This document shows positions 4,111 to 64,000 of a stretch of DNA of 64,000 nt, piece after piece. The stretch is from Rhizophagus irregularis (taxonomy: Eukaryota > Glomeromycota > Glomeromycetes > Glomerales > Glomeraceae). Every line of letters begins with the position of its first letter. The stretch's first letter is position 1. Both the position numbers and the translations under genes were made by a program. The stretch spans positions 682,001-746,000 of the forward strand of contig NC_089438.1 in NCBI RefSeq assembly GCF_026210795.1. Reading direction: 5' to 3'. The notes beneath the pieces are model-generated. The model saw only the letters and a list, made by a program, of their open reading frames with translations. It was not told where the DNA came from and made no database searches.

Positions 4111-5308
4111 TAAAGCTCTGAACGGGTTGGTTTGGTCTGGATTATAGACGGTTCAGATTAGAGCCAAAATCCATAAAAACTGAACCGAAAAACTGGCAGT
4201 TCAGTTCAGTTTAATCCGATTTTTATAAAAATGCGAAAAATCGAATGGCCGTCCATCTAGTGATCGTACAAAGTTGAGCCATATCTAATTGGATTCGTCT
4301 CGATGAGACGCGTCGAATGGTGGTAAGTTCATGTCTCTAGCATCGATATATCACACATTAACCCATGCTAAATGAATTATAAATATTTGGAATTAGCAAG
4401 CTATCTATCAGTGCTAGAGACATTATCTTAGCACCATTCGACGCGTCTCAGTGAGACAAATCCAATGAATATAAATTTGTTCGTGTACGACCACTGGATG
4501 ACGAATAATATCAAGTTTTGCATTTTTTTGAAATTTTATAGCATTAAAAATTAGAAATTCCGATACATAAATTTATTCGTCGTCCAATGGTCGTACAAAT
4601 ATGAATTAGGACTCATTGGATTCGTCTCGATGCGACGAGTCGAATGGTGGTATGATCATGTCTCTAGCATCAATAGATCGTAAGTTAATTCACGCTAAAT
4701 GATTTATAAAAAATTAGCATTAGCAAGCTATCTATCAGTGCTAGAGATATGATCTTAGCACTATTCAACGCGTCTCATCGAGACGAATCCAATGAGTCCT
4801 AATTCATATTTGTACGACCATTGGACGACGAATAAATTCATGTATCGGAATTTCTAATTTTTAATGCTCGAAAATTTCAAAAAAAATGCGAAACTTGATA
4901 TTATTCACTATCCAGTGGTCGTACACGAACGAATTTATATTTATTGGATTTGTCTCACTGAGACGCGTCAAATGGTACTAAGATCATGTCTCTAGCACTG
5001 ATAGATAGCTTGCTAATTTCAAATATTTATAAATCATTTATCGTGGGTTAACGTGTGATCTATAGATGCTAGAGACATGATCTTACCACCATTCGACGCG
5101 TCTCGTCAAGACAAATCCAATGATATATGGCTTGACTTTGTATGATCACTATATGGACGGCTATTTATTTTTCGCATTTTTATAAAAAATCGGATTAAAC
5201 TGAACTGAACCGCCGGTTTTCGGTTCTAATACCCGAACCAAACTGAACTGAATTTTGAGTCGGTTTTGGATCATTTCCCCGGTTTAGCCTGAACCGTTCA
5301 GAGCTTTA
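4111..5308. mobile_element. Non-autonomous hAT-type element with nested palindromic interior
   Basis: Inserted in the hAT pseudogene. Terminal inverted repeats begin TAAAGCTCTGAACGG at both ends and an 8-bp target duplication CTTTATAT flanks it (4103-4110 and 5309-5316). Inside the ends are runs of GGTT/GGTTTGG-like motifs. The core (about 4240-5160) is built of repeated lobes bounded by ATTGGATTCGTCTCGA and GAGACGCGTCGAATGG. Each lobe is itself an inverted repeat, and the lobes are arranged symmetrically about a centre near 4700. No ORF of note. It would need a hAT transposase in trans. Confidence 0.85.
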
Positions 5309-6102: not shown

Positions 6103-7422
6103 TAGAGCTCCGAACGGGTCGGATTAGGTCAGGTTACCTGGTTAATCTGAACTGAAATTTTTTTTCAGGTCAGGTCAGGTCAGGTAAACCGTTCTGACCC
6201 GACCCAACCCATTTGATCCGAAAGTATTCGGGTAACTTCAGGTAACTCGGTTACCCAAAGTTTTATTATTAAATATTGTAAAAAAACGTTTTGTAACGTT
6301 TTTTACTTTTTGTTTTATATATAAAATGCTGAAACTATTTGTTTCAGTATTTTTCCTTTTGATTTTACATGTAAAAACGCTGAAACTGATAGTTTTGGCA
6401 TTTATTTTTCAATTTTACATGTAAAAATGCCGGAATTATTAGTTCCAGCATTTTTCTTTTTGATTTAACATGTAAAAATGCTGAAACTGATAGTTTCAGC
6501 GTTTTTTTTTAATTTTACATGTAAAAACGCCAGAATAATTAGTTCCGGCGGTTTTCCTTTTGATTTTACATGTAAAAACACCAAAACTGATAGTTTCGGC
6601 ATTTTTTTTTCAATTGTACATGTAAAAATGCCGGAATCATTAGTTCCAGCGTTTTTCTTTTTGATTTTACATGTAAAAACGCCAGAATCATTAGTTCCGG
6701 CATTTTTCTTTTTGATTTTACATGTAAAAACGCTGAAACTGATAGTTTCGGCATTTATTTTTCGATTTTACATGTAAAAGCACCAAAATAATTAGTTCTG
6801 GCGGTTTTCCTTTTTGATTTTACATGTAAAAACGCCGAAACTGATAGTTTCGGCATTTTTTTTCAATTTTACATATAAAAATGCCAGAATCATTAGTTCC
6901 AGCGTTTTTCTTTTGATTTTACATGTAAAAATGCCGAAACTGATAGTTTCAGCGTTTTTTTTCAATTTTACATGTAAAAACGCCGGAATCATTAGTTCCG
7001 GCATTTTTTTTCAATTTTACATGTAAAAACGCTGGAATCATTAGTTCCAGCATTTTTCTTTTTGATTTTACATGTAAAAATGCTGAAACTGATAGTTTCG
7101 GCATTTTTTTTCAATTTTACATGTAAAAACGCCAAAATCATTAGTTCCGGTGTTTTTCTTTTTGATTTTACATGTAAAAATGCTGAAACTAATAGTTTCA
7201 GCATTTTTTTTTGATTTTACATGTAAAAATGCCAGAATCATTATAAGTTTCGGCGTTATTTAATTTATTTGACCCGTATATATGTTGGGTCAACGGGTCA
7301 GGTCGGGTACCAACCAGCACTGACCCGACCTGTGTCAGGTCATGAATTTGATGACCTGCCCTGAATATTTTGGGTCAACCCGTCGGGTCACCCGATCTGT
7401 CGGGTCAGGTTTCAGAGCTCTA
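6103..7422. mobile_element. Non-autonomous hAT-type element carrying a palindrome array
   Basis: Splits the BED-finger exon of the hAT pseudogene. Ends read TAGAGCTCCGAACGGG on the left and, inverted on the right, TAGAGCTCTGAAACC. The 8-bp flanks are TTTCCACT and TTTCCACC (7 of 8 match, 6095-6102 and 7423-7430). Subterminal zones are dense in GGGTCGG/GGTCAGGT motifs (about 6110-6260 and 7260-7410). The centre is a long tandem array, described separately. Short open frames inside it are by-products of the repeat, not genes. Confidence 0.82.
6310..7255. repeat. About 18-copy array of alternating palindromes, 50-51 bp period
   Basis: The palindrome TTTTACATGTAAAA recurs about every 50-51 bp (ACATGT at 6366, 6417, 6467, 6517, 6568 and on to about 7219). 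Between consecutive copies sits a hairpin of one of two kinds, with cores GAAACTGATAGTTTC and GGAATCATTAGTTCC. These largely alternate, giving a roughly 100-bp higher-order unit. Arms vary (GCC/GGC, GCT/AGC), often with compensating changes that keep pairing. Confidence 0.9.
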
Positions 7423-7660
7423 TTTCCACCTTTACAAGTATATGCATAGGGCTTCCTATAAGATCCAAAAAGGTCATATTCACATATTTTACAATACACA
7501 AGGTTAGAATCATTTTCATTTATATGAAAAAAAAAGAGGTGTGACTTTTGTTACTACAATCAGATACAATGTTAGCTTTTTATTTTTTTCATGTTTTAGA
7601 TGATTGTGTGAAGTGTATGATGTGAGAATCTTCATCAGAGTCTACATCTGAAGAATAAAA

Positions 7661-62296: not shown

Positions 62297-63531
62297 TTAC
62301 ATACCTAATGACTTCAAATTAACTATACAATCATCCAAATCTTCAGCTTGTGAATCCTCATTTTCAAGAATTTCATTTACTTTTTCACTAGTGGATTGAC
62401 TTGAATAATAAGCTTGTAAATCTTCGCTTTCAAGAATTTCATTCAATTTTTTACTAGTAAAATCAAGTAAGCGACTTGTATAACATGCTTTAGGATGAGA
62501 TTTAGTAACAAGATTGTTATGCTGCCCAATTGGTGCATTTATAAATTCCATAATGTTGCTTTTTAATTCATCATTGACTTCATCATTATCAGGACAGAAA
62601 ATCCATTTTTCAATAATTTTCAATACTTCTTTAGAAGATGGTCTTTTTAATGGATCTTCATTCCAACATCTTTTCATTAAATCTACATAACATTGTGGAG
62701 TATTTTCAATAATTTCAGGACGTTCACCATCTTTACAAATACTTAAACTAAGTTGAATGTCATGTGCTCTATTATTAAATGGTGGCACTCCAGATGTAAG
62801 TTCCCACATAATCATAGAAAAACTATATATATCACTAGCTGGAGTATAAGATTTGCCTCTTAAAACTTCAGGAGCCATAAATGGTATAACACCATAAATA
62901 TCATACTTTTTCAAAAATGATTTTACAGGTTGGCATAATCCTAAATCACTAATATAAATCATATTCTCATTATGATTTAAAATATTACCATCATGTAAAT
63001 CACAATGAATAAGATTTTTTTCATGTATTATACTAAGTCCAGAAATAATTCTGTACAACATACATAATTTTTTATTCCAATTATTTTTGACCATTCTTGT
63101 TAAATTTTCTCTTAAATTACCATTATTTGCATAATCCATTACTACCATATATTTTGAAATATTTGGATCTTCTGTAAATCCATAAAAATTTACAATATCA
63201 AGTGATGAATTTAAACAATTCCTATGATAGTCCCACTACAAAAATTAATAATAATTTATTAATATAAATTATAAAATAAAAAAAAAATAATATACTATCA
63301 ATCTATCATACTTCTTTCAAAAATTCATTTAAATTTTCATTTAAATTCTTGTGACATTTAAGAATTACTTCTATTTTATTTTCATTATTTTTTAACCAAA
63401 TAGCTTTGTATATAGTACCAAATCCTCCTTCATTAAGATATTCAACATTTTTAAATTTATTATAAGGAATCCATCTTAATTTTTTTTTACGAATAAAATC
63501 ATCTATAATTGTATTTCCACTTTTCCCAAAT
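62297..63531 (-). CDS. TKL-like protein kinase of a divergent subfamily, 5' end unresolved
   Basis: Two clear exons on the minus strand: 63312-63531 and 62297-63235, joined in phase 0. Order: FGKSGNTIIDDFIRKKKLRW (counterpart of the WTSGN..IDxFI segment), WIPYNKFKNVEYL, Gly loop NEGGFGTIYKAIW, VILK lysine, FYGFTEDPNISKYMVVMDYA, H-C-D-L-H-D-G-N (Cys at the HRD Arg), D-L-G, FMAPEVLRG, SDIYSFSMIMWELT and CWNEDPLKRPSS. The tail YTSRLLDFTSKKLNEILESE is followed by a second SEKVNEILENEDSQAEDL. The kinase core is complete and probably active. The ORF ends at TAA 62297, but GTATGT just before it could be a donor for further exons. No normal first exon exists inside the window; instead the upstream 470 bp is a chain of stacked splice sites. 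Confidence 0.85.
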
Positions 63532-64000
63532 CTATAAATTTAAATAATTAAAATTATATTATAGATTGTATTATAATTTACACTAGAATAAATTATTACT
63601 TACTCTAAAATTTAAATAGGAATTTAATGTAATATAAGTCTTAGTTTTTGGATAAATACATAATAACCTATAATTTACAACTTACCAACTAAAGTAACAG
63701 ATAATTTTTTGAATAAAAGAATTCAATTAACAAATAAATATTATATAATATATAACAATAGAGATACTTACAAGCTAGATTATAATAATTTTTTAAATAA
63801 AGAAATTAGATAAAATTATATGTAAATATTATAACAATAAGTAATAATAGAATTAAATAAATAACTTATAACTTACGATCTATTAAATAAATAAAGAAAT
63901 TAGATAGTTTAAATTATATGTAAATATTATAACAATAAGTAATAATAGAATTAAATAAATAACTTATAACTTACCAACTAAAATAAATTACAAAATAATT
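63532..64000 (-). other. Chain of stacked mini-introns with 1- and 3-nt candidate micro-exons
   Basis: On the minus strand, five times in 470 bp, an acceptor YAG is followed by 1 or 3 nt and then GTAAGT. They are TTTAG-A-GTAAGT (63604), TTTAG-TTG-GTAAGT (63686-63688), TCTAG-CTT-GTAAGT (63772-63774), AATAG-ATC-GTAAGT (63877-63879) and TTTAG-TTG-GTAAGT (63975-63977). The intervals between them are 72, 81, 83, 102 and 95 nt, the normal intron size in this window. The units at 63775-63876 and 63880-63974 are clear tandem duplicates; the others are not similar in sequence. The chain ends at the acceptor of the kinase exon at 63531 and continues beyond the window edge. Confidence 0.55.

Follow-up and report, generated by a model that had tools for sequence, protein, structure and literature searches.

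The analysed window is a stretch of 64,000 nucleotides of the Rhizophagus irregularis genome (C10:682001-746000), and the searches described below covered 146,748,485 bases in 32 contigs. Near the end of the window, the minus strand carries a protein kinase gene, and the first kinase exon is preceded by a series of very short introns predicted from their splice signals (Table 1). The preliminary description of this stretch had reported five YAG-(1 or 3 nt)-GTAAGT junctions in a row, at spacings of 72-102 nt, ending exactly at a real exon acceptor. All five junctions were present when the minus strand of 63532-64000 was read; the introns measured 95, 102, 83, 81 and 72 nt, and the last one ended at the kinase exon start at 63531. 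The two units described as tandem copies were recovered by Tandem Repeats Finder (63794-63988, period 98). In the 64-kb window, YAG-N3-GTAAGT occurred four times on the minus strand, all within this series, and once on the other strand, at 4674. Joining the predicted exons gave the open string D-P-F-E before FGKSGN, as had been proposed, with the D taking the final G of TTG. The array end CTT-TTG-A, which includes the CTT exon of Table 1, was common to most of the arrays that we read. We also considered the 'T' sites located ~22 nt past the last exon as exons; these were rejected because no intron fits.

Table 1. Predicted features of the array end and the kinase gene, in window positions.
Feature	Position	Strand	Basis
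One-codon exon TTG (junction TAG-TTG-GTAAGT); first junction inside the window	63975..63977	(-)	sequence and array context
Mini-intron, 95 nt, GTAAGT...TAG	63880..63974	(-)	sequence
One-codon exon ATC (junction TAG-ATC-GTAAGT)	63877..63879	(-)	sequence
Mini-intron, 102 nt; 5' part a tandem copy of the 95-nt intron 63880..63974	63775..63876	(-)	
One-codon exon CTT (junction TAG-CTT-GTAAGT)	63772..63774	(-)	sequence
Mini-intron, 83 nt	63689..63771	(-)	sequence
One-codon exon TTG (junction TAG-TTG-GTAAGT)	63686..63688	(-)	sequence
Mini-intron, 81 nt	63605..63685	(-)	sequence
Terminal array exon, 1 nt, A (junction TAG-A-GTAAGT)	63604..63604	(-)	sequence
Final mini-intron, 72 nt; abuts the kinase exon start 63531	63532..63603	(-)	
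First kinase exon, 220 nt; one codon-completing base, then FGKSGN...	63312..63531	(-)	
Ordinary intron between kinase exons, GTATGA...TAG	63236..63311	(-)	sequence
Second kinase exon through stop codon; protein kinase domain	62297..63235	(-)	Pfam

The first kinase exon had a match at 100% and contained no stop; alone it reached 19.0 bits, which was under its cut-off. The second kinase exon (62300-63235, minus strand) matched PF07714 with an E-value of 5.7e-37 (127.9 bits against a cut-off of 23.1) and PF00069 with an E-value of 3.3e-35 (122.2 bits against a cut-off of 31.7). By its predicted sequence, the product of the array gene is a tyrosine-kinase-like protein kinase (PF07714/PF00069).

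The five junctions in the window are the 3' end of ~30 back-to-back mini-introns at C10:748.5-745.5 kb, most of which lie outside the window. This array (locus L004) extends ~2.5 kb past the window edge, to C10:748508, and its chain consists of 30 exons, namely 29 of 3 nt and the terminal 1-nt exon. The mini-introns were 72-113 nt in length, except for one of 213 nt; at C10 ~746595-746715 (minus strand), this intron contains a GC-richer insertion, the ends of which look like inverted repeats. The likely short exon 1 of the window gene, ATGGACCAATGTATTAAAG, was located at C10:748617-748635 and ends in phase 1. Its donor, GTAGCT, is weak, which counts against the model. If splicing and translation proceed as we infer, the N-terminal peptide of the window gene would be DWYDQVGEVVWVGYGRHRRWRHGEGVDPFE, fused to the kinase.

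Additionally, the ~400-500 bp 5' of exon 1 were alike among L004-L011 and L014, with the similarity breaking off in some of them (for example L008, L010 and L011); the pattern looks like joint copying of promoter and array. A longer N-terminus before the array was observed in L012, L013 and L015, starting with an MGQCIGK-like sequence in L015 and with MSQC in L012, and in these three loci a later exon with EEFE-type acidic repeats also lies upstream of the array. The MGQCIGK-like start resembles an N-myristoylation signal. Compared with its paralogue L048, L047 has 12 additional bases in exon 1, inserted in frame, which is consistent with a coding exon.

The array is one of many in this genome. 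Comparison of the window segment with the genome gave at least 423 matches (40 of the 622 candidates were scored). The preliminary description had called for a genome-wide search for the repeated acceptor-donor motif, and this search was run with spacers of two, three and four nucleotides. TAG-N3-GTAAGTTA was clearly dominant, with 4,268 matches (175 in the backward control), against 89 for TAG-N2-GTAAGTTA and 86 for TAG-N4-GTAAGTTA, whose backward controls gave 230 and 214, respectively. We then read 23 array-similar loci (L004-L026) and 18 loci drawn from kinase matches (L027-L041 and L053-L055); for L029, among the latter, the array start was already known before selection. Arrays were present in 17 of the 18 loci picked from kinase matches. 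The exception was L035 (C5:4342401-4346500), where the kinase exon and the terminal 1-nt exon have been kept, the array has been lost and the upstream region is different or rearranged. The arrays of L042-L044, found through the genome-wide pattern, likewise precede the same kinase family, and so did every array followed to its 3' end, the pattern places being among the 100 listed of the 4,268. The L042-L044 kinases have HYN or HYS for the usual HRD and SDY where the window gene has a DFG-like DLG; judged by these motifs, they may be pseudokinases. At L045 (C1:1937301-1939600) we observed two TAG-N3-GTAAGTTA sites without a kinase within the 2.3 kb read, together with a Cys-rich, CVNSGACYSSVT-like repeat reading frame. 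The strict pattern fitted 733 of 1,074 chained 3-nt junctions, which by scaling gives an estimate of ~6,000 one-codon exons; with a median of 32 exons per locus, this corresponds very roughly to 190 arrays, and the kinase repertoire is estimated at ~150-200. The exon and array estimates rest on chosen loci.

Across these loci, the 3-nt spacing was close to invariant. Exactly 3 nt lay between acceptor and donor at 711 of 769 junctions in the 23 array-similar loci, at 397 of 423 in 15 kinase-match loci and at 295 of 312 in nine later loci, and the remainder includes terminal 1-nt exons and some stray sites outside arrays. Juxtaposed acceptors and donors were found at only 3 of the 769 and 1 of the 423 junctions (N0 was not searched genome-wide). 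Among 1,120 chained junctions, 1,074 had 3 nt, nine had 6 nt and 37 were terminal 1-nt exons. Chaining accepted only exons of 1, 3, 6 or 9 nt, a limit that does not apply to the counts of 711 and 397. The median spacing was 87-106 nt across 36 chained arrays. L027 has an array but is absent from the chained counts because chaining found no terminal exon, and L035, without an array, was counted as a one-exon chain; gaps of more than 135 nt, which may hide units, occurred in 19 of 37 chains. L006, L008, L009, L012 and L024 contained occasional exons of 2 or 4 nt, whose inclusion would break the frame; decay, skipping or assembly error are options for these.

In particular, the spacing was retained where the introns had diverged. 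L030 contains 31 introns of 79-111 nt with a median pairwise identity of 0.65, compared with 0.60 for shuffled introns, although their mutual relatedness was still recognisable in places. They have GTAAGT-like donors and YAG acceptors, with YTRAY in the last 60 nt of 29 of the 31, and all array exons are 3 nt save the terminal 1-nt exon. L039 is a similarly diverged array with one 6-nt exon. By a crude count, neighbouring introns with at least 90% identity in aligned columns (770 pairs) differed by ~0.034 gap events per nt.

We found that the arrays close in a single reading frame. A pattern search recognised an exon 1 in 17 of 37 loci, in a short form (MDQ/MDK...) or a long form (MGQ/MSQ/MDQ...IGK-like), and by inspection each ended in phase 1; in the other 20 loci the exon 1 pattern had no match, and several of the fetched stretches end too early or the start differs. 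Thus, the internal exons of these 17 loci share one uniform phase, phase 1. At the 3' side, the kinase exon was open in the closing frame and began with one codon-completing base in 36 of 37 loci, L014 being the one without. The terminal array exon was A in 35 of 37 loci, T in L022 and G in L038. The imposed phase means that each codon is composed of the last base of one exon and the first two bases of the next.

Under this phase, stops at adjacent junctions were strongly avoided. After the chains had been cut at gaps of more than 135 nt, the first set showed 2 stops in 1,001 adjacent junctions against 24.3 when exons were shuffled within the array, and none of 500 shuffles was as low. Reversing the exon order gave 32 stops in 996, and when stops were counted once per locus, there were 2 against 25 of 745 in reversed order. 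The nine loci L047-L055, fetched after the test had been set up, replicated the result with 0 stops in 285 against 10.8 (0 of 2,000 shuffles), and with 13 in reversed order. The two adjacent-junction stops of the first set are in L011 and L015, and the joined strings of L037 and L040, whose chains both have a gap, also hold a stop. The shuffles leave the relatedness of duplicated blocks in, and the distance and order controls share that relatedness. Regarding the other phases, the first set contained 156 stops in 1,019 in phase 2 and 2 in 1,088 in phase 0. Phase 0, in which each 3-nt exon would be a whole codon, was considered for its conserved middle base and rare stops. Two observations spoke against it: phase 1 is dictated by both exon 1 and the kinase exon, and adjacent junctions specifically avoid the pairs T|AA, T|AG and T|GA. 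The stop pattern is most simply explained if neighbouring exons are joined one after another and the product is translated.

The exon bases were much more variable than the introns around them. Among between-locus junction pairs whose 30-nt flanks were identical on either side (5,885 pairs), the three exon bases differed in 56, 22 and 62% of the pairs, while control triplets taken at five positions inside the introns, with the same requirement on the flanks (6,983-7,456 pairs each), differed by only 0-4.6% per base. When the whole upstream intron was identical (395 pairs), the exon bases differed in 47, 3.5 and 42%. Within loci, at identical 40-nt flanks (579 pairs), the values were 19.5, 6 and 19.3%, a smaller effect of the same kind. 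These tests were restricted to L004-L041, and the pair counts are not independent because sequences are related within and between arrays. As the exon bases correspond to codon positions 2, 3 and 1, change is fast at the residue-changing positions and slow at the mostly silent one. Since the intron interiors of older arrays can drift, intron constraint alone is unlikely to be the cause. We infer from these comparisons, with the reservation that the pairs are not independent, that the excess reflects diversifying selection; homogenisation of introns with the codons held apart by selection, or targeted mutation, is not excluded. The middle exon base in L004-L041 was T or G in 1,020 of 1,074 exons (654 T, 366 G, 44 A and 10 C). 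It tracks the acceptor type, and coding alone does not explain the T/G bias. Relative to the kinase exon, the predicted peptides are enriched in D, R, Y, W, G and N.

These results bear differently on the possible explanations. If ratchet-type recursive splicing removed the array as a single long non-coding intron, with the bases between AG and GT never kept, the nearly juxtaposed acceptor and donor at every junction would be accounted for, and dropping all 3-nt exons would also keep the frame. The ratchet points described are juxtaposed, without a fixed 3-nt gap (PMC8605326), and discarded bases would not avoid adjacent-junction stops in one phase, which leaves this explanation very unlikely. 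An even weaker case, hardly credible to us, can be made for a tandem-repeat relic in which intron units were duplicated 5' of the kinase exon and the 3-nt spacing was only inherited. Many units are indeed near-identical, whole blocks recur and the L035 array was lost, and yet the diverged arrays L030 and L039 have kept their 3-nt exons, which argues against a spacing merely inherited by duplication. Moreover, exon length is near-invariant despite the frequency of indels in neighbouring related introns, the exon bases are far more different than the intron bases, and stops are avoided. The earlier remark that simple duplication does not suffice thus stands, even though many units are tandem duplicates.

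We also weighed the possibility that the array generates alternative transcripts, with donors and acceptors pairing at random to yield many in-frame peptides per gene. All units are multiples of 3, so skipping keeps the frame, and in the first set stops were also depleted at distance 2 (11 in 932 against 22.6), with distance 3 onward at expectation. This depletion was not replicated, as L047-L055 showed 10 in 269 against 10.4 at distance 2 and no depletion at any of the distances 2-5. Frequent skipping products are therefore not evidently selected to be open, and we regard this explanation as unlikely. If introner-like mobile introns had invaded an older coding exon that was originally uninterrupted, inserting between its codons, identical introns beside different codons would be accounted for. 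Such an origin would need an insertion every 3 nt in one phase; in addition, intron and codon blocks recur jointly in L005, L006 and L024, as in tandem duplication, and the arrays followed to their 3' end all precede one kinase family. Two pattern searches of the genome found no uninterrupted version: an intron-less array-kinase junction gave only three matches, each with three mismatches (two read like an acceptor before a kinase exon and one is unexplained), and an intron-less array entry gave 42 matches, equal to the 42 in the backward control. None was usable, and while this does not demonstrate absence, we consider the introner-like origin highly improbable.

The preliminary description had left three options, namely true 1- and 3-nt micro-exons, ratchet-type splicing of one long intron and an intron-expansion relic. 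The first is favoured by the N3 spacing, frame closure, stop avoidance and fast exon bases, and the L030 3-nt exons, the adjacent-stop avoidance and the exon-base hypervariability are three results in favour of ordered joining and translation. Neither a non-coding ratchet intron nor an expansion relic predicts the spacing, frame, stop and exon-base observations. We therefore interpret the locus as a stepwise-spliced array of one-codon exons encoding a variable N-terminal peptide before the kinase, a reading to which we assign a probability of roughly 0.84. The architecture, the 3-nt rule, the frame closure, the avoidance of adjacent-junction stops and the hypervariable exon bases are properties of the genomic sequence as read here; that the arrays are transcribed, spliced in a given order and translated, that diversifying selection is behind the variability, and that the peptide acts as a variable specificity segment are inferences made without RNA or transcript data.

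Exons of 3 nt are too short for exon definition, and as the introns are short and have their own signals, stepwise intron definition is the natural order. The introns would be recognised singly and removed stepwise; each splice would lengthen the upstream exon, the next GTAAGT would lie 3 nt past the new junction, and every step would leave one codon behind. A ratchet-like order of this kind, in which every splice makes the next donor available, is likely. The product would be an N-terminal peptide of ~15-50 residues fused to a tyrosine-kinase-like domain, and because the frame is split (1 + 2 bases), two adjacent exons would jointly determine each residue. Units could be gained, lost or recombined, altering the peptide without a frameshift, and the arrays could grow, shrink and recombine. 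We tentatively propose, at somewhat less than even odds, that the interchangeable introns serve as recombination handles between single residues in a repertoire of an estimated ~150-200 kinases, such that the peptide is remodelled in frame through unequal crossing-over and conversion and is diversified by selection for recognition (self/non-self or partner choice), with the peptide driving the kinase.

Splicing of the kind suggested would mean that single-codon exons are routinely joined by the spliceosome, ~30 in succession and at numerous loci of a single genome, which goes far beyond the isolated exons of 1-3 nt that have been described. The arrays would then provide a natural substrate for testing exon definition, splicing order and steric limits. 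They would also make proteins hypervariable by a new route, with an intron as the repeated unit and nothing but the variable codon appearing in the protein. Such N-termini would probably escape gene prediction and read aligners, so some of the proteins of this major plant symbiont, in a kinase family with a possible role in recognition, may be annotated wrongly. We found no description of such arrays in the literature searched, the coverage of which was partial; in our judgement the architecture is categorically new, and priority is not proven.

TAL-effector repeats are near-identical tandem repeats with one hypervariable position each. The arrays are alike in combining a near-identical repeat with a hypervariable position, but their conserved repeat part is the intron, which is removed, so that the protein would receive only the variable codon. 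Exons of 1 and 3 nt, for example in Arabidopsis APC11, show that such exons can be spliced (PMC4674806), and the splicing of the arrays is thus feasible, although such cases involve a single tiny exon in an ordinary gene and the arrays contain tens consecutively. Stwintrons, the fungal spliceosomal twin introns, in which a splice element of one intron is split by a second, internal intron (PMC5639578), are likewise closely packed fungal introns; the arrays do not meet their definition, as they consist of consecutive introns with their own donors and acceptors. Ratchet recursive splice points consist of a juxtaposed acceptor and donor (PMC8605326). The arrays resemble them in that a donor follows the acceptor at once and stepwise removal is likely, but exactly 3 coding-like nt lie in between, and the juxtaposition criterion is not met. 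In schistosome micro-exon genes, each gene has many tiny exons, mostly multiples of three, encoding variable protein; the 35 genes encode secreted proteins, with 10-20 exons per gene of 3-81 or 6-81 bp (mostly 15) and introns of 0.1-5 kb (PMC10526429). The arrays share the many tiny multiple-of-three exons and the variable protein and thus meet the micro-exon-gene criterion of many short exons with lengths mostly multiples of three. They differ in their 3-nt exons, their ~100-nt and often near-identical introns and their position in a fungal kinase gene, and the size criterion is not met. Aphid bicycle genes, which encode putative gall effectors, evolve fast and contain many small internal exons of one phase, with ~17 exons per gene in phase 2 (PMC9168663). 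A uniform internal-exon phase is common to both, although the phase is 1 in the arrays; bicycle exons are larger than array exons, and tandem intron repeats and one-codon exons are unmentioned in the passages of that report considered here. Among the systems compared, schistosome micro-exon genes and aphid bicycle genes are the closest to the arrays.
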